From: Candidatus Tiamatella incendiivivens
GTDB lineage: Archaea; Thermoproteota; Thermoprotei_A; Sulfolobales; Acidilobaceae
Assembly (NCBI GenBank): GCA_015522635.1
Contig: WALW01000007.1
Span: forward strand, 124,001-188,000
DNA length: 64,000 nt
Direction: 5' to 3'
Numbering within the stretch: position 1 is the stretch's first letter; each line of letters starts with the position of its first letter. The notes below the pieces were generated by a model. The model saw only the letters and a list, made by a program, of their open reading frames with translations. It was not told where the DNA came from and did no database searches. This document shows, piece by piece, positions 837 through 7,764 of the stretch. The position numbers and the translations under genes were made by a program.

Positions 837-1847
837 TCACCTTTCACGCATGAGTTTCGCGAGAAGCGGAGCGAAATATGTTATGATCAAATCAGCTCCA
901 GCCCTCTTTATCGCAGTAGCAGCCTCTAATACAGCTCCATCAAGCTCTAAGAACCCCTTTCCAGATGCAGCTCTTATCATCATGTATTCACCGCTCACGT
1001 TATATGCCGCTAATGGTATCCTAGGGAACGTTTCCCCTACTAGTCTTATTATATCCAGGTAAAATAGAGCAGGTTTCACCATTACTATGTCAGCACCCTC
1101 ATCAATATCAAGTTGAATCTCTTTTAGAGCTTCCATACTGTTCCTCGGATCCATCTGATAAGATGATCTATCTCCAAATTTAGGAGCAGACTCCATTACA
1201 GATCGGAAGGGTCCATATAACACGCTCGCATACTTTGCAGAGTAAGCCATTATACCTACATCACTGAATCCTGACGAGTCCAAAGCGCTTCTTATACTCC
1301 TGACTTGACCGTCCATCATACCTGAAGGAGCAACAAAATCAGCTCCAGCCTCTGCTTGGGATACAGCTATTTTACCGTAAACCTCAAGAGTCGAGTCATT
1401 ATCTATTATTTTTACCCCGTTTCTCTCAACTGGTAATCCGCAGTGTCCATGTGTTGTATAATTGCATATACACAGGTCAGTAAATATTACTGGTTCGCTT
1501 CCAATGTTATTCCGGACGTATCTAACCGCTCTATATACGGGGCCTTCTGTAGAGTAAGCTCTGGACCCATGGAAGTCTTTCTTACCGGTTATCCCGAAAA
1601 CTAAGAATCCTTTAATACCGAGTTCTAGATTTGATAGAATAAAGTCGGCTAAATCACTTGATTCAGGAGGATAATAGAAATGTCCCTCTAAACCTTCAGC
1701 CGGCTTCTTTTCACTTATTGCCTCGTTTACGAATATAGGTAAGATTAAATCATCAGTTGATAGATGGGTTTCCGCGAGCATGTCACGTAACTCCTTTTTT
1801 GAACGGAGTCTTCTTAGCCGTGTGACTGGGTATTCCAATTCGACCAC
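837..1847 (-). CDS. hemB: Porphobilinogen synthase (5-aminolevulinate dehydratase)
   Basis: Condenses two 5-aminolevulinate molecules into porphobilinogen. The 336-residue length is normal. The two Schiff-base lysines are visible: K205 in MAYSAKYAS and K258 in MVKPALFYLD. The cysteine-rich metal site (C125, C127, C136 in DLCICNYTTHGHCG) marks the zinc-dependent subtype rather than the Mg-only, Asp-rich one. It starts immediately after the hemA stop and is followed 7 nt later by hemL, so the three precursor genes are almost certainly one transcript. Confidence 0.97.
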   Translation of the reverse strand: MVELEYPVTRLRRLRSKKELRDMLAETHLSTDDLILPIFVNEAISEKKPAEGLEGHFYYPPESSDLADFILSNLELGIKGFLVFGITGKKDFHGSRAYSTEGPVYRAVRYVRNNIGSEPVIFTDLCICNYTTHGHCGLPVERNGVKIIDNDSTLEVYGKIAVSQAEAGADFVAPSGMMDGQVRSIRSALDSSGFSDVGIMAYSAKYASVLYGPFRSVMESAPKFGDRSSYQMDPRNSMEALKEIQLDIDEGADIVMVKPALFYLDIIRLVGETFPRIPLAAYNVSGEYMMIRAASGKGFLELDGAVLEAATAIKRAGADLIITYFAPLLAKLMRER

Positions 1848-3011
1848 CTAAACCCGAGAATATTGTTTAAGGAAAACGTTTAATGCTTGATCATTATCAA
1901 GACGGGCTAGTTCCTTAAGAGATATGATTAGGGGATGAGCCATTTTTTTCAGGGAAGCATTTAGCGCCAGTCTAACATAGCCATGATATTCTGTGGGTAT
2001 TTTTCCATTGATCCATTCCATTTCTTCGTTAATTATATTTTCAATAGCGTAATTTACAACGGATACTGCGATATCAGCGTTACGTGATTTCAATCTATTT
2101 AATAAATTAGAGAGTTCCTCTCTTACGATATCCTCGGTAATTGAAATCCATTTCTTTCTCTCGGATATACCTTTCTCCACTATTTCCTCCAACTGAAATA
2201 CATCGATAACTTTATCTCCCCTGGCTATAGGGGGGATAGAAATATCAATGATGAGATTTGATGAATTGATCAAGGATTCTACTATACTATTACCGGGTCT
2301 ATCATTAATGGCGATGAAAGCAATATCATATGTGTGAAGCCTTATATCATTCAGGCTAATAGGTTCGGCTAATTGACAAATATTAGATAAAAACAGAGCT
2401 TTATCTCTACTTCTATTTGCGATGAATATTTTTCTTGGTCTATGCTTGCAAGTTTCCTCTAATATTATTCGTCCTGCCTTGCCAGCTCCTATGATTATGA
2501 CATTCTTATCTTTGAGTGACCCCGCTTCTTTTAAACCGGCAATCAAAGCAGCCTTGGGATATCCGATAACTCCTTCACTGATTCCTGTTTCTTCTCTAAC
2601 TCTTCTACCAGTCTTAATGGCATACATAAACACTAAATCAAGTAATTCTGTGGAATAAGAGTTCTCCCTCGCATATTTCCATGCTTCTCTCACCTGTCCA
2701 AGGATTTCATTTTCCCCTATTATCTTTGACTCGATTCCTGATGCTACTCTAAACAAATGTCTAATGGTATCTACTCCGGTTTGTATCAAAGGAGTCTGAC
2801 CTGTTAGCTGGATAAAGGTTTCAACTGTTTCTATCCTAGAAACAGGTTTATCAAGGTAAATCTCGAAACGATTGCATGTGGGAAGCACTACAACCCCGGA
2901 GGCTAGCTGGTAAAATCTCTGGTAAGCGTTGGAGGCTATTCTTGAAAGCAAGCCTATCTTATTGAGGCTACTGTTTTTGTGGTCAACAAATAATAACAAG
3001 AGGTTATCCAA
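1848..3011 (-). CDS. hemA: Glutamyl-tRNA reductase
   Basis: NADPH-dependent reduction of glutamyl-tRNA to glutamate-1-semialdehyde, the committed step of C5 tetrapyrrole synthesis. The catalytic cysteine is in LPTCNRFEIYLD (residue 46 from this start). The Rossmann motif GAGKAGRI and the C-terminal dimerisation helices follow. The frame is open up to 3152, but that extension does not resemble the family. The TTG at 3011 gives MDNLLLLFVDHKNSS, matching the usual first strand, and has an upstream GAGG, so I prefer it (387 residues). A TATA-like element near 3166-3173 read on the minus strand would put the transcript start just downstream of 3152, arguing against the longest form. First gene of hemA-hemB-hemL. 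Confidence 0.93.
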   Translation of the reverse strand: MDNLLLLFVDHKNSSLNKIGLLSRIASNAYQRFYQLASGVVVLPTCNRFEIYLDKPVSRIETVETFIQLTGQTPLIQTGVDTIRHLFRVASGIESKIIGENEILGQVREAWKYARENSYSTELLDLVFMYAIKTGRRVREETGISEGVIGYPKAALIAGLKEAGSLKDKNVIIIGAGKAGRIILEETCKHRPRKIFIANRSRDKALFLSNICQLAEPISLNDIRLHTYDIAFIAINDRPGNSIVESLINSSNLIIDISIPPIARGDKVIDVFQLEEIVEKGISERKKWISITEDIVREELSNLLNRLKSRNADIAVSVVNYAIENIINEEMEWINGKIPTEYHGYVRLALNASLKKMAHPLIISLKELARLDNDQALNVFLKQYSRV

Positions 3012-3165
3012 GCTATTGTGTCCTCTAATAGTTTCTGTTCTCCGGCTTCCTAGGATACCAGCATTTACTTCCAAAGCTTTCTCACACCGTTCTAATCCGA
3101 TTATTGCCCTCGTATAAAACAAAGTGTATATGATGGAAATTATACGTCTCAATACTAGTATAATC

Positions 3166-3173
3166 TATAAATA
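3166..3173 (+). promoter_or_regulatory. TATA box between divergent hemA and the chelatase-like gene
   Basis: TATAAATA lies about 30 bp ahead of a GGTGG Shine-Dalgarno site (3196-3200). In archaea transcription starts about 25 nt downstream of the TATA centre, so the + strand transcript would begin near 3195 with an almost absent leader. The element also reads as TTTATA on the minus strand and could serve hemA. Inference from spacing only. Confidence 0.45.
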
Positions 3174-3206
3174 CATATTCTCCAACGTTAATACCGGTGG
3201 ATAGAG

Positions 3207-3785
3207 ATTAGGCAGGCATGGATAGTATATCATAGACCCGGCTTCAGGGAATCAGAAAAGGAGCTATTTAACTTTCTCACCGAATTACGGGGATCCGTAC
3301 AGACTAAACTTAGATCAATTACTATAGATGAATTCGCTAAGGAGTACAATGGAGGCCAAGTTTTCCTACTGTTACTCTACCGAGGAGGACATTATTGCAG
3401 TATCATAGAAAACATTCATGCCAAAAACGGGTGCTTCATAGGAATAATCCCACTTGATTTAACCAGTATTACACTGGCTAGCATAGCTTTAAGAAATAGG
3501 GATTGCGGTAAAATAAAACTGCTACACCATAAGCCAAAGAGGTGTCTAACATATTATAACCAAGACTTATCCCGCATTACATCAATCACTCAAAACATAA
3601 CTGGGATAAAGATCGAACCCGCATCACCTGAGGATGTCTCACAAAAAGATTGTATCATTCTCTTTACTCTCCTTAAAAGCAAAATGATCCAAAACTCGGG
3701 AAATACAAGGATTCTAGCAAATGGACTATTCCCTCAACTGAAAAGTGGATTAGTCTGGTGGATTACTCAAGCACTCGGCAGGTAA
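3207..3785 (+). CDS. CbiX/SirB-like sirohydrochlorin chelatase, apparent ATT start
   Basis: Open for 197 codons between TAA at 3189 and TAA at 3783, yet with no ATG, GTG or TTG until near its C-terminus. GGTGG at 3196-3200 stands 6 nt before ATT at 3207, which would give MRQAWIVYHRPG. The first strand ends in VYHRPG where CbiX proteins have GHGS, and VFLLLLYRGGHY matches the second CbiX metal-site strand (PLFL..GGH). That places histidines H9 and H62 where class II chelatases bind metal. CbiX/SirB enzymes insert Fe or Co into sirohydrochlorin. Iron insertion is the step needed between SirC (3750) and the siroheme decarboxylase, so context supports the call. It overlaps the convergent sirC by 36 nt. 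Alternatives: a pseudogene that lost its start, or an unrelated protein. Confidence 0.55.
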   Translation: MRQAWIVYHRPGFRESEKELFNFLTELRGSVQTKLRSITIDEFAKEYNGGQVFLLLLYRGGHYCSIIENIHAKNGCFIGIIPLDLTSITLASIALRNRDCGKIKLLHHKPKRCLTYYNQDLSRITSITQNITGIKIEPASPEDVSQKDCIILFTLLKSKMIQNSGNTRILANGLFPQLKSGLVWWITQALGR

Positions 3786-4451
3786 ACCTGAAACTTCTAG
3801 AGCTCTAGCTAGAGCCTCTTGTAGAAACCCTTTTTTGATAAGCTCATGGAAACTCCCATCAGAGTCAACCTTAAAGTACAGCGGGACTCTTTCCTTTGGA
3901 TCACTAATACATTCTATCAGAATTTTCTTAAACAGAGACATAACATTAAACAGATTCCTAAGATACTCATTGTTCTCCAAATAACTTGTACAATGCTCTA
4001 AAGCTATTCTCGAAGCTATACCAGTTCTACCCAAACTAGTTATAGCAAGCTCCAACCCTCCATCATATACCTCCGAATGGAAGGGGAAAACAACATTGCC
4101 CGTGGAGGCCTTAGTAGCATTGTTTACAAGAACACCTTTTTTACGTAAGAGATCCGATAATTTGCTATTGAACTGTAAGTCATCAGTCGCTATGACTATT
4201 AGAGAATATTTTCCATGAAGTTCTCTAGCGAGATCCTCAGGTGTCGTATCGTCATCGATGTATTTAAGTTTGAGAATTCCTGAAGCGTCGAGATCCCTTA
4301 AATCTGGAGAAAAATCCTTTGAATAGACTACTACATTAGCACCCTTACTGGATAAGTACCTCGCTCTCCTAGTTCCTACATTTCCGCCTCCTATCACTGC
4401 AATTCTCATTCCCTCAACATCAATGTAAAGTGGGATGTACAATGATATCAA
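3750..4451 (-). CDS. sirC: Precorrin-2 dehydrogenase / siroheme synthase N-terminal domain (SirC/Met8 type)
   Basis: NAD-dependent oxidation of precorrin-2 to sirohydrochlorin. At 233 residues it is the short single-function form, without the SUMT domain of CysG. The Rossmann motif GGGNVGTRRA sits at residues 21-30, followed by LIVIATDDLQFN and the NATKASTGNVVFPFHSEV segment typical of the family's substrate face. Its start overlaps the ahbC stop (ATGA, 4 nt), giving translational coupling at the end of the ahbD-ahbAB-ahbC-sirC operon. Some Met8 proteins also chelate iron, but the separate CbiX-like gene next door makes that less necessary. Confidence 0.9.
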   Translation of the reverse strand: MISLYIPLYIDVEGMRIAVIGGGNVGTRRARYLSSKGANVVVYSKDFSPDLRDLDASGILKLKYIDDDTTPEDLARELHGKYSLIVIATDDLQFNSKLSDLLRKKGVLVNNATKASTGNVVFPFHSEVYDGGLELAITSLGRTGIASRIALEHCTSYLENNEYLRNLFNVMSLFKKILIECISDPKERVPLYFKVDSDGSFHELIKKGFLQEALARALEVSGLPAECLSNPPD

Positions 4452-5626
4452 CTCCTGGTGTCATCAATGAATTTACCTAGTAACTTAATATCCAACGGAC
4501 ACAACGGGTCATCCCCCCAGTAATCTCCATTAATAGCGTACGCCCTATTCCGACTACCTCCACCACACACTTGTTTGAATGGACACATAGAACATTTAGG
4601 CCCTCTCAAGTGTTTCGAAATATTCAGGAAGGGGCGTAGCCTGGGGTTACTCGCATTTAATATATCCCTCAACTGATCCTTCCTAAGATCTCCTATCACC
4701 ACATGATCTATAAACTGACAGGGTCTAACAGTTCCATCCGGATATATGCTAGCTGTCTTCCTCCCACAATCACCTTGCGCTTCAATAAGCGATAAGTATT
4801 CCATGAATTCCTCCTTACTACTAGCAAGCTTCCAAGCTATATAGATACCGACAAAGTTTCCTCTGACTATCAGTATTTCCAAAGAATCCTGATACATTTC
4901 TGCAAGCTCTATGAGATTATCAGCCCATTCAGCCACCATTCCAGGTGTAAGTAGTTCCCTCCCCAACTTCAATCCTCTTCCTACAGTATCAAGCAGGTAA
5001 AGGCTTACTCTTCTTACTCCAAGCCTATAGGCTAAATCCACGATTTCCCCTGTTTCCTTGTAGTTATTAGCGGTTATCGTCGTCCTTATTCCAGCAGGTA
5101 TTCCAGCATCAACTACATTTCTAATACCTTCAATCGCCTTTTCATAAGCACCTTTTACCCCTCTAAAACTGTCATGCCTCGCAGGATTCGCACTGTCAAT
5201 ACTTATTCCAACATACCTGAAACCCAAATAAGCTAGATTACTGGCTATCTTCCTTGTAATCAGAGTTCCATTACTGCTAAGACTCAATGTAGGCCTACGA
5301 TAATATGATAAATACTTTACAATATCCCAGAACTCTTCTTTAATGAGTGGTTCCCCGCCTGTAAACACTATCAGCGGAGATTCCTGGTCTACAATTTGTG
5401 ACGCTATATGCAATAATTCATCTTTATTAAGTTCAGGATAATTTACCCATGGACCACTCCTCATGTAACAATGCTGACACTGTAGGTTGCACTTATAGGT
5501 AATGTTCCAGAATATAACAGGCTTTACGATATCAGTAAATCTCGAAGGCTTCTCCTTGTTGTATTCACCTTTTAATCTCTTTGAAACAGTCCCCTTTCCC
5601 GTCACCATAACTGTAACAGGTATCAC
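4448..5626 (-). CDS. ahbC: Radical SAM protein AhbC (12,18-didecarboxysiroheme deacetylase)
   Basis: Removes the acetate side chains of 12,18-didecarboxysiroheme to give Fe-coproporphyrin III in the alternative heme pathway. The radical SAM cysteines C46, C50 and C53 lie in PVIFWNITYKCNLQCQHC, a context closer to AhbC/NirJ than to AhbD. FTGGEPL follows. A C-terminal SPASM/twitch region carries CSMCPFKQVCGGGSRNRA and a late DDPLCPLD cysteine for a second Fe-S cluster. The GTG start is preceded by AGGTGA and lies 6 nt after the ahbA-ahbB stop. The AhbC/AhbD assignment rests on remembered family differences in the first motif; the two could be exchanged. Confidence 0.85.
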   Translation of the reverse strand: MIPVTVMVTGKGTVSKRLKGEYNKEKPSRFTDIVKPVIFWNITYKCNLQCQHCYMRSGPWVNYPELNKDELLHIASQIVDQESPLIVFTGGEPLIKEEFWDIVKYLSYYRRPTLSLSSNGTLITRKIASNLAYLGFRYVGISIDSANPARHDSFRGVKGAYEKAIEGIRNVVDAGIPAGIRTTITANNYKETGEIVDLAYRLGVRRVSLYLLDTVGRGLKLGRELLTPGMVAEWADNLIELAEMYQDSLEILIVRGNFVGIYIAWKLASSKEEFMEYLSLIEAQGDCGRKTASIYPDGTVRPCQFIDHVVIGDLRKDQLRDILNASNPRLRPFLNISKHLRGPKCSMCPFKQVCGGGSRNRAYAINGDYWGDDPLCPLDIKLLGKFIDDTRS

Positions 5627-5632
5627 GTCTAT

Positions 5633-6604
5633 TCACCTAATAGTACCCGGCTTCAAATCTCCTACACTTCTAATCAATAGCCATTTTCTAGGATGGCAAT
5701 GGGATACAACTTGATCCTGTAAAAATTCTAGTTTCTCTCTATTTACAGCATGTATCATCGCGTAACAACTCGTTTCAAATGATCCGGGCGGATAAGCTTC
5801 CCTCTGAACTACATGTGTAGTATATTCATTACGAGCGAGGCATCTACATAAATCGCCATAGCCGTTATATAGAGTCATCATTAACATTCCGTTTTCAATA
5901 AACCCTAGTTTTCTACCGTCTAACACAGCACCGGGATCTCCGAGAACTCCTTTTTTAACCAAAGACAACATTCTATTGTAAACAGTTTTTTCACTTAGGC
6001 CAATCGAACGTGAAACAGCATCATATGGTTGAGGTTCCAATGGAAGACTTTTCAGTCTCTCTGCTACAACGAGTTCATGTTCCCTCAAAGTAGGAATGCT
6101 ATCAGGGGGGTCTGTATATTTCTGGGATGACCTTGAGATACCATTGATGAGATCGTATTTAACGCTAAGCTTCCATGTTTTTGTTCCAAACAGTACAATC
6201 CAATCCTTCACATGATATTTATTAGCTAAATATCTAGCAAAATCGATAAGCTCCTTCCTATCTCTTCTCTTGCTAACTATCCATAAGTCATACGATGGAT
6301 GATCACGTATGTAGGCGTGGGAAGTGCCTGTATCTCGTATTAAATAACTGGATATCTCACTATAGTTACCGTTGGTAGATAGGGCAATCAAAGCGGCTTG
6401 CTGGTTCTTAGCTCTATAGTTTAAATAAAAGCCTATTCTTTTAATTATACCAAGTGACTTCAACTTTCTCAGTCTATCTAGCAACAGATCAACTTGAATA
6501 CTAAGTCTAATAGAAATATCTTGGTAGGGGGTTTTAGAAAACGGGAAATTATATTGAAGTTCGTTAAGCAACCTTACATCAAACAAGGTGAGACTAGGCA
6601 TCAC
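5633..6604 (-). CDS. ahbAB: Fused siroheme decarboxylase AhbA-AhbB (two Lrp/AsnC-like halves)
   Basis: Siroheme decarboxylase converts siroheme to 12,18-didecarboxysiroheme and in best-studied organisms is a heterodimer of two about 150-170 residue Lrp-like proteins. Here one 323-residue chain holds both. Residues 5-60 are a helix-turn-helix (LFDVRLLNELQYNFP) followed by an AsnC-like domain containing HPSYDLWIVSKRR. A second helix-turn-helix starts at about 170 (REHELVVAERLKSLPLEPQPYD) with its own AsnC-like domain ending near 320. The start codon overlaps the ahbD stop and ahbC follows 6 nt later, so this is an enzyme subunit rather than a true Lrp regulator. NirDL fusions in heme d1 synthesis are a known parallel. 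Confidence 0.87.
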   Translation of the reverse strand: MMPSLTLFDVRLLNELQYNFPFSKTPYQDISIRLSIQVDLLLDRLRKLKSLGIIKRIGFYLNYRAKNQQAALIALSTNGNYSEISSYLIRDTGTSHAYIRDHPSYDLWIVSKRRDRKELIDFARYLANKYHVKDWIVLFGTKTWKLSVKYDLINGISRSSQKYTDPPDSIPTLREHELVVAERLKSLPLEPQPYDAVSRSIGLSEKTVYNRMLSLVKKGVLGDPGAVLDGRKLGFIENGMLMMTLYNGYGDLCRCLARNEYTTHVVQREAYPPGSFETSCYAMIHAVNREKLEFLQDQVVSHCHPRKWLLIRSVGDLKPGTIR

Positions 6605-7764
6605 GGTAACGCCTCATTTAAACCTAGTTTATTCACTAGTTCACTATACTCTCCGGGCTTGTAGTCGCATGCAGGATCAGACTCGAACGGATCTCCATAT
6701 ACTGAGAAGGCCCTTGCCCTACTCCCCCCGCAAATATTTCTGAACTCACATTCACCGCATCTACCCTTGAACATTGCTTCTCTAAGCAACTTGAATATCC
6801 TTGAATTCCTATAGATGTCTGATAAACTTCTAGACCTGACATTTCCGGCAGAAAGTTTAAGGAATCCGCTTGGATAGACGTTACCATCGTATGATACGAA
6901 AACTATTCCAAGACCATCCCTAGTGAACATCCTTGGTATATTGGGTTTCGATGAAGGTTTACCTAGTATGCTCCTCAGCCTCCTAACTAGGCGAGTATAG
7001 ACTTCTCCTGTACCCAATAATTCATCAGGATTGTAACCATATTCCTCGAGTTTACTTCGAATCCATGTAACACGCCTGTACATAGGTCCTTCTGTAGTTC
7101 TAATAATTACACTATACTTAGAAGCTTCATATAGAAAATGTGAAATATCCTCCCAATCACGGGGGGAAAGCATTTCCTCAAAGCTAGCTCTTCCAGTAGG
7201 TACGAGGTAAAAAACTTCCCAAACATTTATACCTAACTTCTTTACAAGTGCAAAAAGGTCAGCCAGACCTTCTTTCGTAGAATTCATCACAACACTGTTA
7301 ATTTGAACGTTTACACCTTTATTTAGCAATTCTCTTATAACCATAATGCTCTTTCTCCATACGCCCGGAACACCACGTATCTCATCATGAATGTGTGGCG
7401 AAGCTGAGTCAATGCTGATTGAAACAGCATTGACCCCGGACTTTACAATCCAGTTTATACTCTGCTCTAAAAGTTCGGTGACGGCAGGAGATAAAGCTGT
7501 TTTTACTTTTTTGTTCACACCATATTCTATTATTTCCTTTATATCTTTCCTCATTAATGGATCTCCGCCTGTTAATACTAGTATGGGATAGGGTCGGCTG
7601 AATTCTGTGATCATATCAATTAACTTAAACGCCTCATCAGTATCGAGTTCACCGGGTAAAGGATTTTTTATAGCTTCAGCCCGGCAATGTTTGCATGATA
7701 GCATACAGGCTTTAGTTGTTTCCCAGAATACTAGAAGAGGCTTTTCCTGCGCTGGCCAACTCAT
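6601..7764 (-). CDS. ahbD: Radical SAM protein AhbD (heme synthase from Fe-coproporphyrin III)
   Basis: Catalyses the last step of the siroheme-dependent heme pathway, oxidative decarboxylation of two propionates of Fe-coproporphyrin III to vinyl groups. Cysteines C20, C24 and C27 lie in FWETTKACMLSCKHCRAEA, and LVLTGGDPLM is the glycine-rich SAM strand; both are typical of AhbD. The C-terminal CGECEFRNICGGSRARA plus DPACDY supply the auxiliary cluster. First gene of the ahbD-ahbAB-ahbC-sirC operon, transcribed divergently from the regulator at 7892. Confidence 0.87.
   Translation of the reverse strand: MSWPAQEKPLLVFWETTKACMLSCKHCRAEAIKNPLPGELDTDEAFKLIDMITEFSRPYPILVLTGGDPLMRKDIKEIIEYGVNKKVKTALSPAVTELLEQSINWIVKSGVNAVSISIDSASPHIHDEIRGVPGVWRKSIMVIRELLNKGVNVQINSVVMNSTKEGLADLFALVKKLGINVWEVFYLVPTGRASFEEMLSPRDWEDISHFLYEASKYSVIIRTTEGPMYRRVTWIRSKLEEYGYNPDELLGTGEVYTRLVRRLRSILGKPSSKPNIPRMFTRDGLGIVFVSYDGNVYPSGFLKLSAGNVRSRSLSDIYRNSRIFKLLREAMFKGRCGECEFRNICGGSRARAFSVYGDPFESDPACDYKPGEYSELVNKLGLNEALP

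Follow-up and report, generated by a model that had tools for sequence, protein, structure and literature searches.

A divergent class II chelatase family with a probable ATT-started member is very probably the siroheme ferrochelatase of Candidatus Tiamatella and related archaea

We analyzed a 64,000-nucleotide stretch of DNA (the window) from Candidatus Tiamatella incendiivivens and found that the frame at positions 3207-3785 of the plus strand is a real, conserved gene that is under purifying selection. We put the probability at about 0.85 that the product of this gene, which belongs to a family that no library models, serves these archaea as siroheme ferrochelatase. The fold of the protein, its aligned histidines, its linkage to a heme gene cluster and its mutual exclusion with CbiX together make this assignment very probable, and they support the chelatase reading that the original prediction had made from the sequence alone. 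The protein is a new, unmodelled form of a known enzyme type, and the type of system itself is already known. The family, which is absent from Pfam and NCBIfam, gives a specific candidate that can be put to the test for a large hyperthermophile group, made up of lineages of the Aeropyrum, Thermodiscus and Tiamatella types together with their relatives. The features of the gene, in window positions, are as follows.

3207-3785, plus strand: coding sequence of a divergent, very probable sirohydrochlorin ferrochelatase of 192 aa, with a probable ATT start and a TAA stop (from homologs, a dN/dS of 0.19, and an AlphaFold2 model matched by Foldseek to SirB/CbiX)
3166-3173, plus strand: TATA box TATAAATA, part of the putative promoter driving the chelatase gene, within the divergent hemA-side spacer (read from the sequence)
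3196-3199, plus strand: Shine-Dalgarno core GGTG, 7 nt upstream of the ATT, which is the modal spacing of the genome
3207-3209, plus strand: probable start codon ATT (modal spacing; ATC at equal spacing in congener G001; ATG one codon on in congener G002)
3231-3233, plus strand: His9, in a YHxPG motif, which profile-profile and CbiX-SirB alignments place at the first metal-ligand His of CbiX/SirB (His10 in SirB)
3381-3392, plus strand: Arg59-Gly60-Gly61-His62 motif, in which the aligned position of His62 is that of the second metal-ligand His (His76 in SirB)
3540-3542, plus strand: Arg112, in the C-terminal half and part of a KPKR/AKR motif, at least 90% conserved and a candidate substrate-binding residue

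Measured from stop to stop, the frame covers 3192-3785 on the plus strand and has 197 codons. This is the length given in the original prediction, and while the frame is indeed open, it has 192 codons when counted from the ATT at 3207. The prediction that the frame lies opposite non-coding sequence is borne out by the opposite strand at 3192-3785, which contains just fragments of at most 48 codons each. The predicted TATA box and the predicted GGTGG site are also where they had been placed. Specifically, the TATA box is kept as CTATAAATACATATTC in congener G002 and almost kept in congener G001, and the GGTG(G) site occupies 3196-3200, so that the ATT at 3207 is found 6 nt past GGTGG and 7 nt past GGTG. 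There is also, as claimed, no ATG, GTG or TTG in the frame upstream of the first histidine motif.

The window protein was not recognized by Pfam, NCBIfam or PDB sequence searches. Above the curated Pfam cut-off, PF01903 matched neither this protein nor anything else in its own genome, and the best of 20 family members gave an E-value of 0.034. This absence of a chelatase match when the translated frame is simply searched against profiles counts against the predicted function taken by itself, but it arises because existing models do not reach a family this divergent, and both structural and profile-profile comparisons do support a chelatase. An AlphaFold2 model of the window protein, made with six sequences, has a pLDDT of 92.8 and a pTM of 0.88, and when it was compared with the PDB by Foldseek, ranks 1-9 were taken by SirB, CbiX and ferrochelatase. 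The top match was SirB 6jv6 (E 4.1e-6), followed by other SirB chains, CbiX 4ccs (TM 0.66) and two ferrochelatase entries. For the Aeropyrum homolog, modelled with a pLDDT of 94.3, TM-scores are highest to 4ccs, SirB and CbiK (0.59-0.69), with the other folds listed reaching about 0.45 or less, and the Foldseek search with this homolog also returned sugar-binding proteins with E-values equal to or better than those of the chelatases.

Profile-profile comparison of the family with 18 archaeal CbiX sequences by HHalign gave an E-value of 1.9e-4, or 4.6e-5 for the N-terminal half alone, with both histidines in register. Six control families gave E-values of 0.1-0.35 with the full profile, and another profile comparison with CbiX that used fewer sequences gave 9.4e-4. 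When the profile-profile alignment is combined with the CbiX-SirB alignment, His9 and His62 superpose on the metal ligands of CbiX and SirB, as expected of the two CbiX-like histidine motifs that were originally noticed. The N-terminal and C-terminal halves of the family are themselves homologous (E 1.3e-8), and the C-terminal half has no equivalent of the RGGH motif. Thus, with aligned halves and a histidine pair confined to the N-terminal half, the protein appears to be a fused, asymmetric chelatase like SirB. Note that the metal site of SirB consists of His10, Glu43 and His76 (PMC11301274), and that no counterpart of Glu43 (Glu42 of CfbA) is conserved in the aligned region of the family alignment. 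This third-site glutamate is not conserved among CfbA proteins either (PMC11301274).

Among known systems, SirB of Bacillus subtilis (PDB 5zt7-5zta, 6jv6) is similar in its two-lobed class II fold, which is the best Foldseek match, in having one His pair in the N-terminal half, in its monomer-type architecture and in its expected substrate, sirohydrochlorin. There are also several differences. SirB has about 260 aa versus about 190 aa in the window family, identity in the structural match is 11-13%, and the window family differs from SirB not only at the Glu43 position but also in its RGGH and AKR signature motifs and in its archaeal heme-cluster context. The small archaeal sirohydrochlorin chelatases CbiX-S/CfbA (PF01903) align at both catalytic histidines with the N-terminal half, and CbiX appears to fill the same role in those AhbAB-positive genomes that belong to the taxonomic families f6 and f11. 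CbiX-S consists of one domain of about 120 aa, and CfbA forms a homodimer, whereas the window family is a fused two-half protein that, unlike these, escapes detection by PF01903. Paracoccus CbiX (4ccs) and CbiK have a similar overall fold (TM 0.66-0.67 to 4ccs), and Paracoccus CbiX, which has been put through an in vivo test in E. coli (PMC4063343), is likewise in the role of a 'missing' siroheme ferrochelatase, but the active-site His of these enzymes is in the C-terminal half (PMC4063343) while that of the window family is in the N-terminal half. Finally, the protoporphyrin ferrochelatase HemH shares the class II chelatase fold (1doz, E 7e-4) but has another substrate and is much larger than the window protein.

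The chelatase gene is embedded among genes for heme synthesis, of which those in the window are all on the opposite strand.

837-1847, minus strand: hemB, porphobilinogen synthase (Pfam PF00490, E 1e-125)
1848-3152, minus strand: hemA, glutamyl-tRNA reductase, divergent from the chelatase gene (Pfam PF05201, E 2.8e-28)
3750-4451, minus strand: Met8/SirC-like precorrin-2 dehydrogenase, convergent with the chelatase gene (PF13241, E 8.5e-21, and CysG N-terminal models)
4448-5626, minus strand: AhbC-type radical SAM/SPASM enzyme (NirJ1/AhbC models best, though below cut-off)
5633-6604, minus strand: AhbA-AhbB fusion, siroheme decarboxylase (PF22451 and PF17805, two stretches each)
6601-7764, minus strand: heme synthase of the AhbD radical SAM/SPASM type (TIGR04053 match over its cut-off; 287 bits to the AhbD model)

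The 3' end of the Met8-like gene overlaps the chelatase gene by 36 bp, and this gene is followed by those for AhbC, AhbAB and AhbD on the far side of the chelatase gene from hemA. To the left of the window the same genome carries hemL, hemC, a tetrapyrrole methylase gene (SUMT) and hemD. With hemA, hemB, hemL, hemC, SUMT, hemD, precorrin-2 dehydrogenase, AhbC, AhbAB and AhbD all present, matches to known enzymes in the genome cover every step from glutamyl-tRNA to heme except iron insertion. The genome has no match to CbiX or HemH (PF00762), and the one to CbiK, elsewhere in the genome, is sub-threshold. This agrees with the original proposal that iron insertion is the missing step, as the other steps are present and none of the three known chelatases has a match over the cut-off. 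In a 2010 survey by Storbeck and colleagues, archaeal heme gene clusters yielded no obvious ferrochelatase gene (PMC3004389), and our literature search found nothing on siroheme chelation in these lineages. In most relatives the gene is located between met8 and hemA or adjoins hemA/hemB, and in f7 it is mostly beside hemB. HemD, which is likewise two-lobed, was considered as an identity for the window protein and rejected, the protein having no PF02602 match and the genome having a separate HemD at G000:C7:121261-121857.

We also compared the occurrence of the family with that of CbiX in the 98 AhbAB-positive genomes of the order. The family alone is found in 55 of these, CbiX alone in 33, both in none and neither in 10 (Fisher p 1.5e-17, a value that overstates the number of independent events because the exclusion pattern follows family lines). 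Counted the other way, AhbAB is present in 55 of the 56 family-positive genomes and CbiX in 0 of 56, and the sole family-positive genome without detected AhbAB is 61% complete. Several of the 10 genomes with neither chelatase are incomplete. Four genomes of the taxonomic family f5 (G049, G059, G060 and G061), with AhbAB but without CbiX or the new family, seem to form a genuine third group, which may have a third route to siroheme. A separate case is genus g5 of f1, in which AhbAB and the chelatase of the window family are both absent from all six genomes searched (G006, G025, G033, G068, G069 and G070), which suggests that the heme pathway was lost jointly with the chelatase.

These patterns bear on two other explanations for the gene product. 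It is very unlikely that the Met8-like protein is bifunctional and inserts the iron itself, leaving the window protein an accessory role in binding tetrapyrroles, for example as a carrier from one enzyme to another. A Met8/CysG-N-like gene does adjoin the window gene, and the yeast protein Met8p performs both steps (PMC4063343); however, the fold and histidines of the family are those of a chelatase, and it is swapped for CbiX across taxonomic families. Sulfolobales are also listed with a precorrin-2 dehydrogenase (PMC3004389 Table 1), and these are the kind of genomes that also carry CbiX, which suggests that the dehydrogenase alone is insufficient there. We consider it very unlikely that the protein is a class II chelatase for cobalt or nickel and not for iron. 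Metal specificity is unreadable from sequence, class II chelatases show promiscuity in vitro, and a two-His site is common to SirB and CfbA (PMC11301274), but occurrence of the family tracks that of the siroheme decarboxylase nearly one to one (the 55 of 56 genomes above) and the gene is located in a heme cluster. We infer that the metal is iron.

Homologs of the window frame were found by protein search in 31 of 60 relatives, including Acidilobaceae, Thermodiscus, Aeropyrum and Candidatus Tiamatella MAGs. A profile built from these homologs, seeded with a five-row alignment, matched 56 of the order's 214 genomes strongly, with the matches concentrated in the window's own taxonomic family f1, plus f7, f8 and f10. 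Outside of the order, a phylum-wide sample of 349 genomes contained no convincing match to the family, and one marginal match there covers 34 positions (E 9e-4). Three genomes of genus g12 (G013, G021 and G071) have second, divergent paralogs with an open frame of about 248 aa on other contigs. Identity of the frame is 76-77% with a congener and falls to about 20-35% across 50-odd other genomes. Near-invariant positions of the family alignment include Y8, H9, P11, G12, G60, G61, H62, P82, C100, R112, D120 and C149, with H9 and H62 conserved at 90% or above, and the window copy keeps 12 of the 13 columns that are conserved at 85% or above, the exception (a Pro) being common to G002.

Relative to the nearest congener, the dN/dS is 0.19, which is equal to that of AhbAB and Met8 of the same cluster, and the differences, counted without gaps, fall 23/20/62 across the codon positions. 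Divergence from the outgroup is symmetric, with 5 vs 3 unique changes. Decay of the gene into a pseudogene with loss of its start codon, which the original prediction raised as the opposing outcome and which would account for the absence of an in-frame ATG, GTG or TTG before the first motif, is therefore highly improbable at this dN/dS, the more so with no stops in the frame, symmetric divergence, retained conserved residues and no other chelatase over the cut-off in the genome.

Our reading of the protein as a siroheme ferrochelatase leads to the following model. The product would be a class II chelatase of monomer type, compact at about 190 aa and built of two related halves, that inserts Fe2+ into sirohydrochlorin to form siroheme, which the AhbAB, AhbC and AhbD enzymes encoded alongside would then convert to heme. 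In the N-terminal half, His9 and His62 would correspond in function to His10 and His76 of SirB, serving as metal ligands and/or as acceptors of the pyrrole protons, and the C-terminal half would supply basic residues, for example Arg112, for the substrate carboxylates. The GGTG Shine-Dalgarno site 7 nt upstream would place the start of translation at the ATT.

Start statistics were drawn from 387 kb of the genome, taken in stretches. Among 305 non-overlapping ORFs of at least 150 aa, the chelatase frame is the sole one with no ATG, GTG or TTG in its first third, indicating that the absence of a standard start is not due to chance. In the same 387 kb, 21 of the 36 unambiguous starts with GGTG lie 7 nt after it, which fits the predicted ATT start. 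Congener G001 (L085, reverse strand near 5916) has GAGGTG followed 7 nt later by an ATC. The one standard candidate there, a GTG that is a possible start, comes 16 nt after the Shine-Dalgarno core and so outside the usual spacing; this suggests an ATC start in G001. The G181 member (L119:4979-5520) has no ATG, GTG or TTG before the first motif and has a CTG 7 nt after GGTG. Near-cognate codons at the modal spacing in several members thus favor real non-standard initiation. We infer that translation of the window gene probably begins at the ATT at 3207, which is the best-supported start of the gene.

The start codons of relatives do not all agree with this, as congener G002 has an ATG one codon beyond the ATT position, where the window has AGG (3210-3212). 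An error in the draft consensus (27 contigs) is therefore possible, in which case the gene would have an ordinary ATG start. We consider this unlikely, though by no means negligible, given that the region just upstream differs from G002 too, with GGTG at the modal distance from the ATT, and that G001 has ATC at equal spacing and the third genome has CTG there with no standard start. A start at the out-of-frame GTG at 3197 (GTG GAT AGA GAT TAG), with a +1 shift at the TAG into the chelatase frame, would put initiation about where a leaderless start is expected from the TATA box, but G001 has a GTG at that place without the stop after it, so the arrangement is not conserved and this origin of the protein is highly improbable.

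With initiation at the ATT, the gene may represent a rare archaeal case of AUU initiation, and gene finders limited to ATG, GTG and TTG would skip such a gene. A survey of prokaryotes found an AUG to AUU switch in 1 of 61,358 reconstructed ancestral AUG starts (PMC5622118), and our literature search found nothing on natural AUU starts in archaea. A more speculative possibility, which we hold as doubtful, is that a domain duplication of their own gave these archaea a new two-half class II chelatase lineage, separate from SirB/CbiX-L, in which near-cognate starts (ATT, ATC and CTG) have been repeatedly tolerated or exploited for low expression. On the other side of the intergenic spacer, the hemA frame stays open upstream as far as 3164, and the TTG called as its start is near the chelatase promoter (window 3153-3206). 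Translation of hemA probably starts at a more internal codon than the one called, leaving a short divergent promoter region.
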